Source: an uncultured Polaribacter sp.
GTDB taxonomy: Bacteria; Bacteroidota; Bacteroidia; Flavobacteriales; Flavobacteriaceae
NCBI GenBank assembly: GCA_913047375.1
Contig: CAJWTV010000002.1
Span: forward strand, 62,001-126,000
DNA: 64,000 bases
Direction: 5' to 3'
Shown here: piece after piece, positions 46,207 through 55,675 of the stretch
Layout: each line of letters opens with the position of its first letter
Position numbering within the stretch: the stretch's first letter is position 1
Position numbers and translations under genes: made by a program
The notes under the pieces: generated by a model
Told to the model about the DNA's origin: nothing
What the model saw: the letters and a program-made list of their open reading frames with translations, nothing else
Database searches by the model: none

Positions 46207-47871
46207 CTAATACGCGTCATCATGAACATTAAGTATTGCTCTTCCAGATGGTTCATTCATATTTTTAAAAGCTTCATCCCAATCAAGTGCTATCTTTGTA
46301 CTACAAGCAACACTTGCCTCCTGAGGGACACTTAAAGCAGCTGCATCACTAGGGAAGTGTTCTTCAAAAATAGAACGATAATAAAATTCTTCTTTATTTT
46401 GAGGTGTTTGAATTGGGAACCTAAACTTAGCGTTTGTTAATTGCTCATCAGAAACTTCTTTATCGACGACCTCTTTTAGGGTGTCAATCCAATTATAACC
46501 AACTCCATCAGAAAATTGTTCTTTTTGCCTCCATGCGACACTCTCGGGTAACATATCTTCAAAAGCTTTTCTTATGATCCATTTCTCCATTCGTTCTCCA
46601 TTGATCATTTTATCTTTTGGATTTAAACGCATAGCTACATCAATAAATTCTTTATCTAAAAAAGGCACACGTCCTTCTATACCCCAGGCCATTAAACTTT
46701 TATTAGCTCTTAAACAATCATACATGTGTAATTTATCTAATTTACGGACAGTTTCTTCATGAAACTCTTTTGCATTTGGAGCCTTATGAAAGTATAAATA
46801 TCCTCCGAAAATTTCATCAGCACCTTCACCAGATAGCACCATTTTAATCCCCATTGATTTAATGACTCGCGCCATTAAGTACATTGGAGTAGAAGACCGA
46901 ATAGTTGTGATATCATAGGTTTCTATGTTGTAAACAACATCTTTAATGGCATCTAATCCTTCTTGTATCGTAAATTTAATTTCATGATGAATAGTACCTA
47001 TATAATCTGCAACCTTTTGAGCTGCAATTAAATCTGGAGATCCATCTAAACCAACAGAAAAACTATGTAATTGTGGATACCATGCATCCGATTTATCATC
47101 CGATTCAATTCTTTTTTGAGCATATTTCTTTGCAATAGCAGAAGTTACTGAAGAATCTAATCCACCAGAAAGTAAAACTCCGTAAGGTACATCACTCATC
47201 AACTGCCTGTGAACAGCATCTTCTAAAGCTTTTTTTACTTCTGTTATACTTGTTTCATTTTTTTTGACGGCTTCGTATTCAGTCCATTCTCTATTATACC
47301 ACTTTACAAATGCACCATCTTTACTTGTCATATAATGACCTGGGGGGAAAAGTTTTATCTCAGTACAGACACCTTCTAAAGCTTTTAATTCAGATGCTAC
47401 ATAAAATGTTCCGTTTTGATCCCAGCCCATGTATAAAGGGATAATTCCCATATGATCCCTTGCAATAAAATATTCATCCTTTTCGGTATCATAAATAGCA
47501 AATGCAAATATCCCATTCATTTCATCAATAAAGTTGACTCCTTTTTCTTTGTAAAGTGCTATAATAACTTCACAATCTGAGGCCGTTTGGAATTTGTATT
47601 TACCATCAAATTGTTTTTTTAATTCTCTATGGTTATAAATCTCTCCGTTTGCGGCTAAAATTAGTTTCTTATCTTGACTAAAAAGAGGCTGATGACCAGA
47701 TGCTGGGTCTACAATAGCTAGTCTTTCATGTGTCATAATAACTTTATCGTCACTGTATACTCCACTCCAATCTGGTCCACGATGTCTAATTTTTTTTGAC
47801 ATCTCCAGTAACTGAGGTCTTAAAACATTACTATTTTCTTTTAAATCAAACGCACATACAATACCGCACAT
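46207..47871 (-). CDS. asnB: Asparagine synthase B (glutamine-hydrolysing)
   Basis: A 554-residue amidotransferase that makes asparagine from aspartate, glutamine and ATP. The glutaminase nucleophile is C2 in MCGIVCAF; RHRGPDWSG and AANGEIYNH follow. The synthetase domain has the ATP-pyrophosphate loop LLSGGLDSSV and SGEGADEIFGGY. Length and motifs equal E. coli AsnB. It is a lone gene, divergent from the trp operon. I could not find a TAnnTTTG element in its upstream region. Confidence 0.96.
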   Translation of the reverse strand: MCGIVCAFDLKENSNVLRPQLLEMSKKIRHRGPDWSGVYSDDKVIMTHERLAIVDPASGHQPLFSQDKKLILAANGEIYNHRELKKQFDGKYKFQTASDCEVIIALYKEKGVNFIDEMNGIFAFAIYDTEKDEYFIARDHMGIIPLYMGWDQNGTFYVASELKALEGVCTEIKLFPPGHYMTSKDGAFVKWYNREWTEYEAVKKNETSITEVKKALEDAVHRQLMSDVPYGVLLSGGLDSSVTSAIAKKYAQKRIESDDKSDAWYPQLHSFSVGLDGSPDLIAAQKVADYIGTIHHEIKFTIQEGLDAIKDVVYNIETYDITTIRSSTPMYLMARVIKSMGIKMVLSGEGADEIFGGYLYFHKAPNAKEFHEETVRKLDKLHMYDCLRANKSLMAWGIEGRVPFLDKEFIDVAMRLNPKDKMINGERMEKWIIRKAFEDMLPESVAWRQKEQFSDGVGYNWIDTLKEVVDKEVSDEQLTNAKFRFPIQTPQNKEEFYYRSIFEEHFPSDAAALSVPQEASVACSTKIALDWDEAFKNMNEPSGRAILNVHDDAY

Positions 47872-48069
47872 AATTTTATATATTTTAATATAACTATTTA
47901 TTTTAAATACAAAAAACCAATTATTTGTTTTAATATTAAACTTATTTTTTAATTTTAGTTACATATTTAAGATTTTAATTATAATTTAATAAATTATTGA
48001 AACTAAATAATTAATTTTTGATTAACGAGATTACTGTTTATTATTTACTCAAAAAAAATGAAATAAAAC
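47872..48069. other. AT-rich intergenic region upstream of asnB, no gene seen
   Basis: The 391-base gap between asnB and trpE contains the trp promoter and attenuator in its right half. The left half (to 48069) is very AT-rich; I find no reading frame, hairpin with a T-run or full promoter match in it. It must hold the asnB promoter, but I cannot place it. Confidence 0.5.
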
Positions 48070-48100
48070 TTGGTCAAGTAGAATTTGGTTTCTAAATTTG
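48070..48100 (+). promoter_or_regulatory. trp operon promoter
   Basis: TTG at 48070-48072, a 20-base spacer and TAAATTTG at 48093-48100, a full match to the -33/-7 consensus. The start point should be around 48103-48107, so the leader-peptide ATG at 48108 would be at or almost at the RNA 5' end. Confidence 0.75.
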
Positions 48101-48107
48101 TAACCCA

Positions 48108-48155
48108 ATGATTAAACAACAAAATATATGGTGGTGGAGCTCTCTTAAACAATAA
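48108..48155 (+). CDS. trpL: trp leader peptide with three Trp codons
   Basis: A 15-codon frame encodes MIKQQNIWWWSSLKQ and stops with TAA. Three consecutive TGG codons at 48129-48137 are a Trp sensor as in classical attenuation leaders. It lies directly after the trp promoter and 30 bases before a strong terminator hairpin, with trpE next. A chance run of three TGG codons here in such AT-rich DNA is unlikely. Translation would be practically leaderless, since no ribosome binding site fits. The symbol trpL is used by function; the peptide itself is not expected to be conserved in sequence. Confidence 0.82.
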   Translation: MIKQQNIWWWSSLKQ

Positions 48156-48217
48156 GTGAGAATATCCCCCTATATGTAAAAATATAAAAAAGGCTTATCT
48201 CACGATAAGCCTTTTTT
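48141..48217 (+). promoter_or_regulatory. trp attenuator: competing RNA stems
   Basis: Three segments can pair in two ways. Segment 1, TCTCTTA (48141-48147), lies just after the Trp codons; segment 2, TAAGTGAGA (48153-48161), follows; segment 3, TCTCAC (48198-48203), is in the top of the terminator. Segments 1 and 2 can form a stem with a two-base bulge. If a ribosome stalls on the Trp codons it covers segment 1, and GTGAGA in segment 2 is free to pair with TCTCAC, which would open the terminator. With enough Trp, 1:2 forms and the terminator stands. The pairings are seen in sequence; the mechanism is inferred by analogy with classical attenuation. Confidence 0.65.
48186..48217 (+). terminator. 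Attenuator terminator in front of trpE
   Basis: Perfect 14-base arms: six A plus GGCTTATC on the left, GATAAGCC plus six T on the right, with the four-base loop TCAC. It ends 45 bases before trpE, inside the operon's leader, so it must be conditional. Confidence 0.9.
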
Positions 48218-48262
48218 GCTATTATAAATAAATATTGAATTTATTAAGCAAAAATCAAAAAA

Positions 48263-49645
48263 ATGAAATTTAAAACAATAAGTACTACCAGTATTTCTGA
48301 CACAGTTACTCCTGTAGGTTTGTACTTACGTTTTCGAGATTCTTATGCTAAAACTTTATTACTAGAAAGTTCAGATTATCATAGTAAAGAAGAAAGTTTT
48401 TCTTTTATATGTATTGATCCAATCATTACAATGAAAGTAGAAAACGCACAATTTTCTATTGATCAAAATGGACACAATAAAGTGAAGAAATTCATAGATA
48501 AAAACTTCTATGAATTGTTTGATAATTTTTCCAATTCTATTTCACTAGATTGTTCTGATGAACTTAAATCATTTAATGGCCTATACGGCTATACAACTTT
48601 TGATAGCGTTCAGTATTTTGAAAACATAAAATTTAAAAACAAGAAAGCACCTTCTTCAATTCCAGAAATGCAATATAGTTTTTATCGATTTATAATTGCC
48701 ATTAATCATTTTAATGATGAAATGATATTGATTGAAAACATTGAAGAAAATCAAACCTCAAGAATTTCTGAAATTGAGAATATTATTAAAGCACAATCTT
48801 TTAATACTCAAAAATTTGAAATTGTTGGGAATGAAACTTCAAATTGTACAAATGATGATTTTAGAGAGTATGTTGTAAAAGCAAAGGCACATTGCAAGCG
48901 AGGTGATGTTTTTCAATTAGTTTTATCACGTCAATTTCAACAAGAATTTAAAGGAGATGAATTTAATGTTTACAGAGCTTTACGTTCTATAAACCCTTCT
49001 CCATATTTATTTTATTTTGATTATGGGAATTTCAAACTAATGGGTTCATCTCCAGAGGCACAAATAAAAATATCTGCAGGAAAAGCGACTATTAATCCTA
49101 TAGCTGGAACTTTTCGTAGAACAGGAGAAATGGCGGAAGATTTTAAGTTAGGTAAAAAATTATCTGAAGATAAAAAAGAAACTGCTGAACATGTTATGTT
49201 AGTGGATTTAGCCAGAAATGATTTGAGTAAACATGCAGATAATGTAACCGTAGAGGTATTTAAAGAAGTACAATATTTTAGTCATGTAATTCATCTAGTT
49301 TCTACAGTTCAAGGTCGAATTAAAGGGAATCCGATAGAAATTGTTGGAGATACTTTTCCTGCAGGAACTTTAAGTGGGGCGCCAAAATATAAAGCAATGG
49401 AATTAATCGATAAATATGAAAATCAATCTCGTGGGTTTTATGGTGGGGCTGTTGGCGTTATTGGGTTGGATGGTTCAGTAAATTTAGCTATTGCAATTCG
49501 ATCCTTTGTAAGTAAAAACAATGTTTTGTATTCGCAAGCTGGTGCCGGAATTGTAATCAATTCCGACAAAGAAAAGGAATTACAGGAAGTAAATAATAAA
49601 TTAGCTGCGCTTAAGAAAGCATTGATATTAGCTGAGAAGATATAA
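48263..49645 (+). CDS. trpE: Anthranilate synthase component I (TrpE)
   Basis: A 460-residue chorismate-binding enzyme forming anthranilate with TrpG-supplied ammonia. The C-terminal chorismate domain has GDVFQLVLSRQF, MGSSPEAQIKI, PIAGTFRRTG, MLVDLARNDLS and AGTLSGAPKYKAMELID; the last part, GAGIVINSDKEKE, is also canonical. It is the first structural gene of the trp operon; trpG follows after 62 bases. Pabs-type relatives (PabB) are excluded by operon context rather than by one residue. Confidence 0.96.
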   Translation: MKFKTISTTSISDTVTPVGLYLRFRDSYAKTLLLESSDYHSKEESFSFICIDPIITMKVENAQFSIDQNGHNKVKKFIDKNFYELFDNFSNSISLDCSDELKSFNGLYGYTTFDSVQYFENIKFKNKKAPSSIPEMQYSFYRFIIAINHFNDEMILIENIEENQTSRISEIENIIKAQSFNTQKFEIVGNETSNCTNDDFREYVVKAKAHCKRGDVFQLVLSRQFQQEFKGDEFNVYRALRSINPSPYLFYFDYGNFKLMGSSPEAQIKISAGKATINPIAGTFRRTGEMAEDFKLGKKLSEDKKETAEHVMLVDLARNDLSKHADNVTVEVFKEVQYFSHVIHLVSTVQGRIKGNPIEIVGDTFPAGTLSGAPKYKAMELIDKYENQSRGFYGGAVGVIGLDGSVNLAIAIRSFVSKNNVLYSQAGAGIVINSDKEKELQEVNNKLAALKKALILAEKI

Positions 49646-49707: not shown

Positions 49708-50283
49708 ATGAAAATACTAATAATAGATAACTACGATTCATTTACTTATAATCTAGTTCATATGGTTGAAAAAATTACTGGAAATTCTCCTTCAGTTTTT
49801 AGAAATGATGAAATCACTATTGAGCAAATTAGAAATTTCGACTTAATAATATTATCTCCAGGACCTGGAATCCCTGATGAAGCAGGTATTTTAAAAGAAG
49901 TAATTAGAACTTATGCAACTAATAAACCAATTTTTGGAGTCTGTTTAGGTCTTCAGGCAATTACAGAGGTTTTTGGAGGAAAAATTACAAATTTAGATTC
50001 TGTTTTTCATGGAGTTGCAACTGAAATGAGAGTGATTGATAAAAGTGCTATCATTTTTAAAGACATTCCTGAAGTATTTTTAGCCGCACGTTATCACTCT
50101 TGGTCAGCCTCAGATGAAGGTTTTCCAGAAGGAATAAAAATTACTGCAAGAGATGAAGAAGGTGGGATTCAGGCGATAGAACATTGTTTATATCCAATCT
50201 CAGCGGTTCAGTTTCATCCAGAATCTATTTTAACAGATGTTGGAGAACAATTGGTTAGGAATTTTATCAATGCAAATTCATAA
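49708..50283 (+). CDS. trpG: Anthranilate synthase component II, glutamine amidotransferase (TrpG)
   Basis: A 191-residue class I glutamine amidotransferase supplying ammonia to TrpE. The oxyanion motif is LSPGPGIPDEAG, the catalytic Cys is in FGVCLGLQAI and the His-Glu pair is in VQFHPESILT. Its stop overlaps the trpD start as TAATG. It is a separate protein, not fused to TrpE or TrpD. Confidence 0.96.
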   Translation: MKILIIDNYDSFTYNLVHMVEKITGNSPSVFRNDEITIEQIRNFDLIILSPGPGIPDEAGILKEVIRTYATNKPIFGVCLGLQAITEVFGGKITNLDSVFHGVATEMRVIDKSAIIFKDIPEVFLAARYHSWSASDEGFPEGIKITARDEEGGIQAIEHCLYPISAVQFHPESILTDVGEQLVRNFINANS

Positions 50284-51272
50284 TGAAAGCAATTTTAAAC
50301 GACTTATATCAACATAAAAGATTATCAAAATCAGAAGCAAAACAGGTCTTAATCGATATTGCTTCAGAGAAATATAATGATGCACATTTAGCATCATTTA
50401 TGACAGTTTTTATGATGCGTCCAATTTCGGTTCAAGAGCTATCAGGCTTTAGAGAAGCTTTACTAGATTTGGCAATAAAAGTTGATTTTTCAGAGTATAA
50501 TACAATCGATATAGTAGGTACCGGAGGTGATGGTAAAGATACCTTTAACATATCAACATTAACATCTTTTATTGTCGCAGGAACAGGTCAGAAAGTAGCA
50601 AAACACGGTAACTATTCAGTGTCATCAAAGTCGGGGTCATCAGATATGTTAGCTAGCTTCGGTTACCAATTTACTAACGATCAAAATACTTTAAAGAATC
50701 ATTTAGAGAAAGCAAATATTTGTTTTTTACATGCTCCTAAATTTCACCCTGCAATGAAAGCAGTTGGACCAACAAGAAAAGCCCTAGCATTAAAAACATT
50801 TTTTAATATGTTAGGGCCATTAGTTAATCCAAGCTCTCCAAAAAATCATTTATTAGGAACTTTTAATTCAGAAATCGCACGTTTGTATAATTATATTCTT
50901 CAGGAAGAAGACATTAATTATGGAATTATTCACACTTTAGATGGTTATGATGAAATTTCTTTAACAGGTCCTTTTAAGATGTTTACTAAAAAAGGAGAGT
51001 TATTAATTAACCCAGAAGACTTAGGTCAGAAAAGGATAAAGCAATCAGAAATTTTTGGAGGAAATAATATTGAAGCAGCGGCTAACATTTTTAAATTAAT
51101 TATTAATGCTAAAGGGACAGAAGCACAAAATAATGTTGTTTTAACAAATGCAGCTTTTGCTTTAAAAATAATAGATCAAACAAAGAGTTATGAGGATGCT
51201 TTTGAAGAAGCAAAAATATCGCTTTTAGATTTGAAAGCAAAACAAACATTAGATAAATTAATACAGTTATAA
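50283..51272 (+). CDS. trpD: Anthranilate phosphoribosyltransferase (TrpD)
   Basis: A 329-residue transferase that attaches phosphoribosyl to anthranilate. The PRPP loop is DIVGTGGDGKDTFNIST, and KHGNYSVSSKSGSSD and the KAVGPTRKALALKTFFNMLGPLVNP region are diagnostic. It starts inside the trpG stop (TAATG) and ends one base before the next, small reading frame. Confidence 0.96.
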   Translation: MKAILNDLYQHKRLSKSEAKQVLIDIASEKYNDAHLASFMTVFMMRPISVQELSGFREALLDLAIKVDFSEYNTIDIVGTGGDGKDTFNISTLTSFIVAGTGQKVAKHGNYSVSSKSGSSDMLASFGYQFTNDQNTLKNHLEKANICFLHAPKFHPAMKAVGPTRKALALKTFFNMLGPLVNPSSPKNHLLGTFNSEIARLYNYILQEEDINYGIIHTLDGYDEISLTGPFKMFTKKGELLINPEDLGQKRIKQSEIFGGNNIEAAANIFKLIINAKGTEAQNNVVLTNAAFALKIIDQTKSYEDAFEEAKISLLDLKAKQTLDKLIQL

Positions 51273-51273
51273 T

Positions 51274-51453
51274 ATGAAGGAAAAGAAAAATAATTTATTT
51301 TTGTTAGTGCCTTCGTTTTTATTAATTGGAACAGCTATTGGTCTTCAAACAGGGTCCTTTTTGAGGGACTCTATTACTGGAATAATAGTAGGTTTTGCTA
51401 TTTTTATGGTTTTGAGTTACAGAAATAATAATATTGATAAAACAGATTCTTAG
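51274..51453 (+). CDS. Small two-helix membrane protein inside the trp operon
   Basis: A 59-residue reading frame begins with an ATG one base after the trpD stop and ends one base before the trpC ATG, so it is packed exactly into the operon. It starts MKEKKNNLFLLV, has two hydrophobic segments (about 8-25 and 33-49) with a short loop FLRDS, and a polar tail ending in DKTDS. Charges suggest both ends lie in the cytoplasm. I do not recognise a family. Tight packing and the clean membrane pattern support a real gene. A tryptophan-linked transport or membrane role is possible, but nothing shows it. Confidence 0.75.
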   Translation: MKEKKNNLFLLVPSFLLIGTAIGLQTGSFLRDSITGIIVGFAIFMVLSYRNNNIDKTDS

Positions 51454-51454
51454 T

Positions 51455-52243
51455 ATGACTATTTTAGACAAAATAATTGCATTTAAAAAGAAAGAAATTG
51501 CTAAAATAAAAGCAGAAGTTCCATTAAAGAAGTTAGTAGAAAGTCCAAGTTTTGCAAGACAAACTATTTCATTAAAACAATCTTTATTAGAAGTAGGTTC
51601 AACAGGTATTATTGCAGAATATAAAAGACAATCTCCATCAAAAGGAATTATAAATGATAAAGCAACTATTGCTGAAGTCACCAATGGATATTTAGATGCA
51701 AATGTTTCAGCCCAGTCTATTTTAACAGATACTTCATTTTTTGGAGGAACTATGGCAGATTTAATGGAAGCGAGGGTTATAAATCAAAAAAAACCAATTT
51801 TGCGTAAAGATTTTATAATTGATGGATTTCAGATTGTAGAAGCAAAAGCGATTGGTGCAGACGTAATTTTATTAATTGCTTCTTGTCTTACTTCGGAAGA
51901 GCTAAAAAACTATGGAAATTTAGCTAAAGACTTGGGTATGGAAGTTTTATATGAAGTTCATAGCCAACTAGATTTGGATAAAATTAACGATTTAGACAAC
52001 AAGATTATTGGAATTAATAACAGAGACTTAAATACATTTGAAGTTAATCTAGAACATTCTATTAAGTTGGCTAATCAAATTCCAAATTCCTCTATAAAAG
52101 TGTCAGAAAGTGGCATCTCTGATCCAAGAATTATAACTGGATTAAAAGAGTATGGTTTTCAAGGGTTCTTGATTGGTGAGAATTTCATGAAAAATGAAAA
52201 TCCAGGTGAATCATGTCAAGATTTTATCAGTCAAATAAGATAA
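51455..52243 (+). CDS. trpC: Indole-3-glycerol phosphate synthase (TrpC)
   Basis: A 262-residue TIM-barrel enzyme closing the indole ring. Motifs are IAEYKRQSPSKG with the catalytic Lys, LRKDFIIDGFQI, IGINNRDLNTFEV and KVSESGI. I use the ATG at 51455 (MTILDKIIAFKK); an upstream in-frame start at 51434 would overlap the small membrane gene and adds an unconserved leader. trpC is not fused to trpF, unlike in E. coli. Confidence 0.96.
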   Translation: MTILDKIIAFKKKEIAKIKAEVPLKKLVESPSFARQTISLKQSLLEVGSTGIIAEYKRQSPSKGIINDKATIAEVTNGYLDANVSAQSILTDTSFFGGTMADLMEARVINQKKPILRKDFIIDGFQIVEAKAIGADVILLIASCLTSEELKNYGNLAKDLGMEVLYEVHSQLDLDKINDLDNKIIGINNRDLNTFEVNLEHSIKLANQIPNSSIKVSESGISDPRIITGLKEYGFQGFLIGENFMKNENPGESCQDFISQIR

Positions 52244-52245
52244 GT

Positions 52246-52935
52246 ATGAAGCTGAAAGTTTGTGGAATGAAATACGGAGAGAATATTAAGCAAATAGCGA
52301 ATTTGCAGCCCGATTATATGGGCTTTATTTTCTACGAAAGATCTAAAAGGAATTTTGAAGGGATTCTTCCTGAAATTCCAAAATCAATAAAGAAGACAGG
52401 TGTTTTTGTAAATGAATATGTAGAGATCGTAATTTCTTTAGTGGAAGAATATAATCTAGAAGCTATCCAGTTACATGGTGATGAATCGGAGGAGTATATT
52501 ATAAACCTAAAGGCTCAATTAGATTTGAGAAAAGCTCTATTTATTAAAGAGAATAAACTTCAAAAGAAGAAAATAAACAAACATATTATTTCTAATGTAA
52601 AAGTTGAAATAATCAAAGTATTTGCTATTAATAATGAATTTGATTTTCAATTATTACACCCTTATTTAAATTATGTAGATTATTTTTTATTTGATGCAAA
52701 AGGCAAAGAAAGAGGAGGAAATGGCACTAAATTCGATTGGTCTATTTTACATAAATATAATTTTGATAAACCTTTCTTTTTAAGTGGAGGTATAGGTCTA
52801 GAAGATTCAAATGAGATAGTGAAAATAATTGATTCAAATTTACCAATTTATGCATTGGATATAAATAGTAAATTTGAAATAGAACCTGGTTTAAAAAACA
52901 TTAATCAAGTTAAAATATTTAAGAAAACATTATAA
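52246..52935 (+). CDS. trpF: Phosphoribosylanthranilate isomerase (TrpF)
   Basis: A TIM-barrel isomerase of about 229 residues. It starts [13 protein letters not shown] with the catalytic Cys in KVCGMK, has [22 protein letters not shown], the catalytic Asp region [13 protein letters not shown] and [11 protein letters not shown]. The ATG at 52246 comes two bases after the trpC stop; starts further upstream would lie within trpC. Confidence 0.95.
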
Positions 52936-52936
52936 A

Positions 52937-54121
52937 ATGAAATCAAAATTTCAACCAGATAAAAATGGTTATTTTGGACAATATGGAGGGGCATTTATTC
53001 CTGAATTGTTGTATCCAAACGTGAAAGAATTAGAAGATAATTATATTCAAATTATTGAGTCTGAAGAATTTCAAAAAGAATATAAATCATTACTAAAAGA
53101 TTATGTAGGTCGTCCAACACCACTTTATCTAGCAAAACGGTTATCAGAAAAATATGGCGCAACTATTTATCTAAAAAGAGAAGATTTAAATCACACTGGA
53201 GCTCATAAAGTAAACAATACTATTGGTCAGATACTAATTGCTCAAAAATTAGGAAAAACTAAAATTATAGCAGAAACTGGAGCAGGTCAACATGGAGTTG
53301 CAACTGCAACGGTTTGTGCATTAATGGATTTAGAATGTACTGTTTTTATGGGTGAAAAAGACATTGTTCGTCAAGCACCAAATGTTGCTAGAATGAAAAT
53401 GTTAGGAGCAAAAGTTATACCAGCAACTAGTGGAAGTAAGACATTAAAAGATGCTACAAACGAAGCAATCCGATACTGGATCCAAAATCCTGATACGTTT
53501 TATTTAATTGGATCTGTAGTTGGTCCCCATCCACACCCAGACATGGTAGCTCGTCTTCAGGCAGTAATCTCAGAAGAGATGAAATGGCAATTAAAAGAAA
53601 AAACAGGAAAAGAAAATCCAGATACAATTATTGCTTGTGTCGGTGGGGGAAGTAATGCTGCTGGTGCTTTTTATCACTATATGGATCACGAAGAGGTAGA
53701 ATTAATAGCAGTTGAAGCTGCAGGTCTAGGAATTAATTCTGGTGAAAGTGCTGCTACTTCACAACTAGGTGAAGTTGGTATTATTCATGGTAGTAAAACT
53801 ATTTTAATGCAAGATAAGTATGGACAAATAGCTGAGCCCTATTCCATTTCTGCTGGATTAGATTACCCCGGTGTTGGACCATTACATGCATTCTTGTACG
53901 AGACCAAAAGAGCAAAATTTATGAGTGCTACTGATAAAGAAGCTTTATCTGCCGCTTATGAATTATCAAAGCTTGAAGGAATTATTCCTGCTTTAGAGAC
54001 CGCACATGCTCTAGCAGTTTTATCAAAAATTAAATTTAAAGAGGATCAAGTTGTAGTTATTAATTTATCTGGCCGAGGAGACAAAGATTTAGAAATATTT
54101 ATTAAATATTTAAAAGAATAA
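52937..54121 (+). CDS. trpB: Tryptophan synthase beta chain (TrpB)
   Basis: A 394-residue PLP enzyme that joins indole and serine to tryptophan. The PLP Lys is in [13 protein letters not shown], the substrate motif is [12 protein letters not shown], and [12 protein letters not shown] is the phosphate-binding loop; the motif GLDYPGVGP is typical of TrpB1, the form partnered with TrpA. Unusually, trpA does not follow directly: the DUF3050 gene starts inside the trpB stop (TAATG) and separates the two subunits. Confidence 0.97.
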
Positions 54122-54897
54122 TGAAAAATAAAATTGATTTTATTGAAAACGAATTAAAAGTTTTAAGAGATAAATTAAAAGAACATTCACTCTATGAAAA
54201 CCTTCAATCTATTAAAGATATTAAGCTTTTTATGGAAAATCATGTTTTTGCAGTATGGGATTTTATGTCACTGTTAAAAGCATTACAAATAGATTTAACG
54301 ACAGTTTCTATTCCTTGGATGCCTAATAAAAACTCAAAACTTGCTAGATTTATTAATGAAATTACTGTAGCAGAAGAAAGTGATTTTGATAAAGACGGAA
54401 TTATTAAAAGTCACTTTGAAATATATTTGGATGCAATGTGCGAGATAGGTGCAGATACTTCTAAAATAGATTATTTTATAGAGCAAATTTCACACTCAAA
54501 ATCTGTTAAAGAATCTTTAGAAAACACATTAGTATTAAATGCAGTAAAAGATTTTGTATCATTTACTTTTGATATAGTTAATTCTAAGGAAGCTCATAAA
54601 ATTGCCTCAGCATTTACTTTTGGTCGAGAAGATGTTATACCTGATATGTTTTTAAAAATTGTGAAAGAAGCTTCCATAGAAAACAATAAAAGTTTTGATA
54701 GCTTTATTTATTATTTAAATAGACATATTGAATTAGATGGAGATGAGCACGGTCCTTTATCTCTTCAAATGATAATTGAATTATGTGAGAATGATAATAA
54801 AAAATGGGAAGAAGTTTTAGAAGTAGCAAAGCAATCTCTTCAAGTAAGAATTAATTTGTGGGATGGAATTGAGAAACTTTTAAAAACCCACAAATAA
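54121..54897 (+). CDS. DUF3050 (heme-oxygenase-like) protein in the trp operon
   Basis: A 258-residue, mostly helical protein of the DUF3050 family, which I place in the heme-oxygenase-like fold by pattern. Candidate metal ligands are H41 in [12 protein letters not shown]98 and E100 in [10 protein letters not shown], and H202, D206 and H210 in [10 protein letters not shown], a HxxxDxxxH spacing like that of heme-oxygenase-like di-iron oxidases. No signal or membrane segment is seen, so it is cytoplasmic. The start overlaps the trpB stop (TAATG) and trpA begins 13 bases after its stop, so it is cotranscribed and probably translationally coupled. Its reaction is unknown; an oxygenase acting on an indole or Trp-related compound is only a guess. 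Confidence 0.85.
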
Positions 54898-54910
54898 GAA
54901 CTAGTTTAGG

Positions 54911-55675
54911 ATGAAGAAGTTAAATTTATTGTTAGAGAAGAAAGATAACTTATTATCTATTTATTTCACATGTGGATTTCCGAAATTAAATGATACAACG
55001 AAAGTAATTTGTGAATTAGAAAAAAGTGGTGTCGACTTTATTGAAGTTGGATTACCTTATTCAGATCCTATAGCAGACGGCCCTACAATTCAATATAGTA
55101 GTCAAAAAGCTTTGGAGAATGGAATTAATTTAGATATTATTTTTGATCAATTAGTGTCGATTAAAAAAACAAACAAAACTCCTTTGGTTTTAATGGGCTA
55201 TTTGAATCAAATGCTAAAATATGGCGAAGATAAATTCTGTCAAAAATTAGTTGATTGCGGAATAGATACTTTAATAATTCCAGATTTACCTATGATAGAA
55301 TTTGAAAATCACTATCAAGCATTGTTTGATAAATATGGGCTTACAAATATCTTTCTTATTACACCAAACACGAAAGAGAATAGAATTAAAAAAATTGATT
55401 CGTATACAAAAGCATTTATTTATGTAGTAGCTTCTTCCTCTATAACAGGAGCAAAAGGTAAAATATCTAATGAACAAATTACATATTTTAAAAGAATAAA
55501 ATCAATGGAATTGAAGAGTAAGTTAATTATTGGTTTTGGTATTTCTGATAAGTCTACTTTTAAAACTGCCTGTGAGTTTGCAAATGGTGCTATCATTGGT
55601 TCTGCTTTTATAAATTATATTTCAAATAATAGCATAGATAAAATAGAGGACTTTATAAAACCAATTATAGTATAA
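54911..55675 (+). CDS. trpA: Tryptophan synthase alpha chain (TrpA)
   Basis: A 254-residue TIM-barrel subunit that cleaves indole-3-glycerol phosphate to indole. The catalytic Glu is in DFIEVGLPYSDPIADGP, and LVLMGYLNQMLKYG, LIIPDLP and the phosphate loop IGFGISDKS are canonical. It is the last gene of the operon; the plug-domain gene converges 18 bases downstream with no visible terminator in that gap. Confidence 0.95.
   Translation: MKKLNLLLEKKDNLLSIYFTCGFPKLNDTTKVICELEKSGVDFIEVGLPYSDPIADGPTIQYSSQKALENGINLDIIFDQLVSIKKTNKTPLVLMGYLNQMLKYGEDKFCQKLVDCGIDTLIIPDLPMIEFENHYQALFDKYGLTNIFLITPNTKENRIKKIDSYTKAFIYVVASSSITGAKGKISNEQITYFKRIKSMELKSKLIIGFGISDKSTFKTACEFANGAIIGSAFINYISNNSIDKIEDFIKPIIV

Follow-up and report, generated by a model that had tools for sequence, protein, structure and literature searches.

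The leader region of the trp operon in the window, the whole 64,000-nt stretch of DNA that was analysed, very probably contains a ribosome-mediated transcription attenuator that belongs to the RNA family RF01692 and occurs in a leaderless form. The region (48070–48262) occupies the gap between the divergent genes asnB (46207–47871, minus strand) and trpE. RF01692, also called Bacteroid-trp and titled "Bacteroidete tryptophan peptide leader RNA" in Rfam, goes back to Weinberg et al. in 2010 (PMC2864571). In a search of 501 bases it matches positions 48088–48199 with 61.1 bits, and in a search of the whole window positions 48098–48199 with 50.9 bits (cut-off 49), in both cases upstream of the tryptophan biosynthesis genes trpE to trpA. 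A Bacteroid-trp element precedes the trp operon of Flavobacterium psychrophilum according to a 2019 paper (PMC6414381), and a transcriptome of the same species, published in 2021, offered strong clues to leader-peptide attenuation before amino-acid operons (PMC9723704). Since the family has already been described, novelty does not lie in the attenuator itself. What appears to be new here is the predicted leaderless form of the RF01692 attenuator, conserved in the genus members examined. Further Rfam matches in the region (STnc430, BTnc231 and Thr_leader) were rejected because they did not reach their gathering scores.

In the family to which the window belongs, RF01692 was found in 141 of 199 genomes at E ≤ 0.001, 123 of them over the cut-off, and within its genus in 57 of 58 genomes at E ≤ 1, 26 of them over the cut-off. 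Across a sample of the phylum, 30 of 296 genomes match, and 28 of these belong to the same family. The operon itself begins with trpE (48263–49645, plus strand; Pfam PF00425 and PF04715), which is followed on the plus strand by trpG, trpD, trpC, trpF, trpB, a DUF3050 gene and trpA (49708–55675, assigned by Pfam); the run from trpE to trpA presumably forms one transcript. Among named contigs, the closest TrpE proteins come from Polaribacter and Tenacibaculum, with up to 87% identity, which makes the Polaribacter/Tenacibaculum group the probable place of the genus. The DUF3050 gene (PF11251, with a sub-threshold haem-oxygenase-like match) is located at 54121–54897, between trpB and trpA. DUF3050 is present in 18 of 30 genus genomes, and by coordinates it lies 6–7 kb from the trp leader in seven of these and elsewhere in the other eleven.

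The leader peptide gene trpL (48108–48155, plus strand) is a 15-codon open reading frame (ORF) encoding MIKQQNIWWWSSLKQ, followed by TAA. Its ATG lies at 48108–48110, its stop codon at 48153–48155, and the three consecutive TGG codons that a preliminary description of this DNA had reported are present in the frame, at 48129–48137. For comparison, one locus each was taken from 56 genomes of the genus, including the window's own, and from 138 genomes of other genera. The rows dropped were, in the genus, L087 (weak match, no Trp ORF), G228 (E 0.7; equivalent to L199) and G202 (no match), and, in the family, G082 (contig end). Of the 194 loci, 193 carry a short ORF that has two or more Trp codons and sits where Rfam predicts it (55/56 in the genus and 138/138 in other genera), and 7–9 codons precede the first Trp in 192 of these 193 leaders. 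The motif WWW is present in 185 of the 193 leaders, so the comparison of relatives for conserved TGG codons that had been proposed earlier came out in favour of a Trp leader. All of these counts are partly given by construction, because the search required Trp codons and a start near the Rfam-predicted place. Leader residues outside WWW vary among the relatives.

Conservation of this kind bears on the question of whether the peptide is made at all. Short ORFs occur by chance, and the ORF search itself required Trp codons; the hairpin could then be an ordinary promoter-proximal structure next to an untranslated Trp-rich ORF, with trp controlled by other means. However, besides the high frequency of WWW and the narrow range of codons ahead of the first Trp (for a start chosen near the Rfam-predicted place), gaps in the genus alignment span three columns between ATG and TGG, and the genus also has His-rich leaders before hisG and Ile/Val-rich ones before ilvD, which makes such a reading extremely improbable. 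The alignment excludes L068, for which the script had picked a wrong start.

The leader is preceded by a Bacteroidota-type promoter, TTGG-N19-TAAATTTG (48070–48100, plus strand), with a -33-like TTGG at 48070–48073 and the -7 box TAAATTTG at 48093–48100. This agrees with the full promoter reported in the preliminary description, and TAAATTTG is the sole perfect TAnnTTTG on the plus strand within 47872–48262. Across 54 aligned genus sequences, the TA and TTTG columns of the -7 box are invariant. At the -33-like site, the genus conserves TT, with one of its two columns invariant and the second at 90% or more, while the full TTTG is not conserved. In F. psychrophilum, the sigma-A box is located at −12 to −5 relative to mapped transcription starts (PMC9723704), and in F. 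johnsoniae candidates were accepted as probable promoters if the box was 4 or 5 nt away from the start (PMC6847099). Given the 7 nt that separate the end of TAAATTTG from the leader ATG, these Flavobacterium box positions predict a start at 48105 or 48106 and a 5′ UTR of approximately 2–3 nt (48105–48107, plus strand).

The distance between promoter and start codon is similar throughout the genus. Of the 55 genus leaders, a script found 54 to have a perfect TAnnTTTG ahead of the ATG, at 6 nt in two, 7 nt in 44, 8 nt in four and 9 nt in four of them; in the 55th, L068, inspection by eye shows TACATTTG 7 nt before the ATG if the methionine of MMKQQ is taken as the start. These spacings imply a predicted 5′ UTR of about 2–5 nt for the trp leaders of the genus. 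The 138 leaders from other genera are more diverse, with a perfect box at 4–12 nt in 60, at 14–22 nt in 70 and at 28–40 nt in four, and with no perfect box in the remaining four. A box at 4–12 nt is thus found in 114 of the 193 leaders, including one leader with boxes at both 4 and 18 nt that was scored as 4 (L022), whereas 200 shuffles gave 1.7 such leaders on average and never more than 6. In 80 named trpE loci, the box is positioned at 4–11 nt in 70, at 16–19 nt in six and at 29–32 nt in two, and it is missing from two, for one of which (L290) the script chose an unlikely ORF. A genus-like group among the relatives, g128, has its box mostly at 16–20 nt. Among the 53 ORFs of at least 100 amino acids in the window, whose starts were assigned mechanically, none has a perfect box at 4–12 nt and seven have one within 60 nt.

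A functional transcript from an unrecognised promoter further upstream would give the same attenuator a normal 5′ UTR. Short leaders are uncommon in the Bacteroidota studied: 5.5% are leaderless in F. psychrophilum (PMC9723704), 87% of leaders exceed 10 nt in F. johnsoniae (PMC6847099), and about 3.7% of 5′ UTRs are under 10 nt in B. thetaiotaomicron. The 70 leaders from other genera with a box at 14–22 nt point in the same direction. On the other hand, the gap holds a single perfect box and the gene on its other side, asnB, is divergent. In the genus that box is invariant and stands at a near-fixed distance from the ATG (7 nt in 44 of 55 leaders), and conservation extends to the TT of the -33-like site, but not to the full TTTG; an upstream start is therefore unlikely. 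The preferred reading, a start next to the leader ATG, had already been put forward in the preliminary description. It is supported by the conserved spacing between promoter and ATG, the box positions mapped in Flavobacterium and the fact that his leaders of the genus are spaced differently. This combination indicates that the sensor peptide would be read from an RNA that starts almost at the start codon. The box positions further indicate that a near-leaderless trp arrangement is probably common to the genus relatives examined, and not to the whole family.

Several RNA structures can form downstream of the start codon. The protector hairpin (48124–48177, plus strand), which corresponds to the RF01692 stem, pairs the Trp-codon segment with UCCCCCUAUAU and has a minimum free energy of −16.8 kcal/mol; in its inner stem, UCUC (48141–48144) pairs with GAGA (48158–48161). 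The antiterminator strand GUGAGA (48156–48161, plus strand) follows directly after the stop codon, and its partner UCUCAC (48198–48203) is part of the intrinsic terminator (48186–48217, plus strand). The terminator consists of 14-bp arms (48186–48199 and 48204–48217) and the loop UCAC. Its six outermost pairs are all A-T, which places the run of six T at the end of the 3′ arm and leaves GGCTTATC/GATAAGCC as the core. The two alternative stems proposed earlier exist, with TCTC pairing to GAGA in the first and GTGAGA to TCTCAC in the second, and the terminator before trpE, described as having perfect 14-base arms, is indeed complementary over 14 pairs.

The region 48070–48290 folds at −48.7 kcal/mol, compared with −28.8 kcal/mol for shuffled sequences (z −5.35; 0 of 200 as good). 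A consensus scan for promoters and terminators provides no support on its own, with one terminator-like site against a shuffle mean of 0.6 (sd 0.7), and as a simple scan of the sigma-70 type it does not cover Bacteroidota promoters. It reports the hairpin for the minus strand but not for the plus strand, where the T run is counted within the stem. With its symmetric A run and T run, the hairpin at 48186–48217 also scores as a terminator for the minus strand.

The effect of ribosome position was modelled by folding RNAs from 48105 to successive ends, keeping the ribosome-covered part unpaired and assuming that the ribosome reaches 12 nt past the first base of its A-site codon. For RNA ends at 48203–48209, a stall at each of the three Trp codons gives GUGAGA:UCUCAC a mean pair probability of 0.93–0.94. 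A ribosome at the stop codon, or no ribosome, gives a probability of 0, and the terminator then folds while its 3′ arm is being synthesised. For RNA ends at 48213 and 48217, the terminator prevails in all modelled ribosome states. As the thermodynamic model favours the terminator for full-length RNA whatever the ribosome state, antitermination must be kinetic.

In the proposed mechanism, RNA polymerase would start approximately 3 nt before the leader AUG, so that the ribosome would have to begin translation at the RNA 5′ end or very close to it. When charged tRNA-Trp is ample, the ribosome would proceed to the UAA and its footprint would extend over GUGAGA, so that the 14-bp terminator could form. 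When charged tRNA-Trp is scarce, a stall at the UGG triplet would open the protector hairpin and mask UCUC. GUGAGA, freed by the stall, would then pair with the emerging UCUCAC and block nucleation of the terminator at its loop until the polymerase has passed. If no ribosome loads, GUGAGA would be hidden by the protector hairpin, leading to termination. We infer where the ribosome sits, where the RNA begins and how this attenuator responds to tryptophan from its sequence, its conservation and modelled folds. The extension of enterobacterial-type attenuation at Trp codons to this locus, as suggested in the preliminary description, is supported by the leaders, the stems and the folding with a modelled ribosome.

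The same architecture recurs in the relatives. A terminator was found in 192 of the 193 leaders, and a strand near the stop codon is usually complementary to its loop and edge, mostly as GUGAGA:UCUCAC in the genus and as UCGUGA:UCACGA elsewhere. The complementarity score is at least 6 for 86% of the 192 own pairs, compared with 10% for shuffled strands; relative to partner swaps between sequences, the excess is small (own-pair mean 6.59 versus 6.09–6.23 in 10 swaps). The best run differs in five of the 192 leaders, where CUUAUC or CUUAUU is combined with GAUAAG. Both strands are changed and still complementary over at least 8 pairs in L159 (GUCGCAAU:AUUGCGAC) and in L196 (UCGUAAAC:GUUUACGA), and terminator arms have changed together, as in the core GGCUUAUC/GAUAAGCC versus GGCUUGUC/GACAAGCC. 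The common strand still scores 6.5–7.5 on the terminator of L196, and for L097 and L150 the common terminator gives a higher score than the one in their own sequence. The antiterminator pairing is not kept in L192 and L194, with scores of 3.5 and 4.5, respectively. In L077 the terminator loop is inverted, with GTGA for TCAC, and the usual antiterminator pairing should therefore be abolished in that genome.

Within the genus alignment, 95% of the cells are paired in the terminator and 96.6% in the antiterminator, while the protector helix reaches 63% in its outer and 91% in its inner part. The terminator, the antiterminator and the protector stem show no covariation excess over shuffles in the 54 genus sequences, as these stems hardly vary. 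The preliminary description had asked for covarying stems in related Flavobacteriaceae. Within the genus this expectation was not borne out, the shuffle control not being exceeded; changes on both sides of a stem do occur, only across the family.

Leader peptides for other amino acids provide a comparison inside the genus. A His leader (e.g., MNFIQNHHHHFYNCSQAI) with three to six consecutive His residues precedes hisG in 26 of 29 genus loci (L306–L334), and its box, perfect or matching 5 of 6 positions, is located at 16–19 nt in all 26 cases, which classifies this leader as leadered. An Ile/Val-rich leader (e.g., MKKQLLNIISTINVIVIITNW) precedes ilvD in 17 of 30 genus loci (L335–L364). The ilv box is degenerate, e.g., AATATTTG or GATATTTG, with only 5 of 6 consensus positions matching; taking the nearest box where two are present, it lies at 4–10 nt in 14 of the 17 leaders and at 19 nt in one, and is absent from two. 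With his leadered and ilv mostly leaderless, the leaderless geometry belongs to particular leaders and not to every leader of the genus. A threonine leader was not detected by pattern in the 1500 bases upstream of the domain match at 30 loci with homoserine dehydrogenase domains, a span that need not reach the start of long fused homoserine dehydrogenase genes and is thus no evidence of absence.

The history of the two forms was followed on a tree of 153 distinct TrpE proteins, of which 111 are labelled leaderless and 42 leadered on the basis of box spacing. The label requires 8 changes, at least 4 of them forced by starred branches, compared with 37 for shuffled labels, on a quick LG+G4 tree that carries long-branch warnings and over-represents the genus. 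The tree omits L204, which has no trpE match, six loci with unclassable boxes (L013, L020, L216, L293, L297 and L305) and six identical proteins. As predicted from box spacing, the leaderless or leadered state is inherited and has switched several times (at least 4–8).

The trp attenuator of E. coli combines Trp codons, mutually exclusive hairpins and a terminator before trpE, and the window element is alike in these respects. It differs from the E. coli system in that it is predicted to have almost no 5′ UTR and in its short antiterminator stem, which takes the loop and edge of the terminator. To our knowledge, Shine-Dalgarno use is not expected in Bacteroidota, unlike in the E. coli trp system. 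RF01692 is the same RNA family as the window element and likewise represents a Trp leader in Bacteroidota. Its match begins 20 or 10 nt before the AUG and ends with the 5′ arm of the terminator, and the model thus contains neither the whole promoter nor the whole terminator. Neither the table row for the family (PMC2864571) nor its Rfam title line distinguishes leaderless and leadered classes.

Leaderless attenuators have been described in other phyla. In the Alphaproteobacterium S. meliloti, the trpL RNA has its 5′ end at the leader ATG, encodes a 14-residue Trp leader and mediates attenuation before trpE (PMC7298713); this leaderless Trp attenuator is likened to the window element by description, not by sequence. 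The S. meliloti RNA, rnTrpL, also raises the question of a role in trans. The layout of the window element is as in S. meliloti trpL, whose RNA begins with the ATG (PMC7298713), and the terminated leader RNA of approximately 110 nt could act in addition as a small leaderless mRNA or sRNA, but this appears very unlikely given the variable leader residues outside WWW. The peptides leuL, ilvL and metL of S. lividans are leaderless attenuator peptides as well (PMC8079986), and ilvL of C. glutamicum is treated as leaderless by its authors (PMC11857589). Leaderless transcripts make up 17% of the total in S. lividans (PMC8079986), in contrast to a small minority in the flavobacteria studied. No statement on a leaderless attenuator peptide in Bacteroidota was found in the open-access full texts searched, and the main text of Naville and Gautheret 2010 (PMC2965389) mentions none of the terms Bacteroidetes, Bacteroid, Flavobacter, leaderless and trpE.

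These observations lead to a tentative proposal, which we consider possible but somewhat doubtful: leaderless translation may have a preferred niche in some attenuator peptides of Bacteroidota, such as those of trp and ilv. The trp sensor would have switched forms several times in one family with the rest of the device unchanged, suggesting that initiation at the RNA 5′ end may be selected for the earliest coupling of ribosome and polymerase. Related bacteria carry closely similar attenuators whose predicted 5′ UTR measures about 0–8 nt in some and about 10–18 nt in others, a natural comparison in which the his leader of the genus serves as an internal leadered control. Such pairs would allow ribosome loading on nascent RNA to be tested without Shine-Dalgarno guidance, and comparing them could show whether a leaderless start alters the coupling on which attenuation depends.
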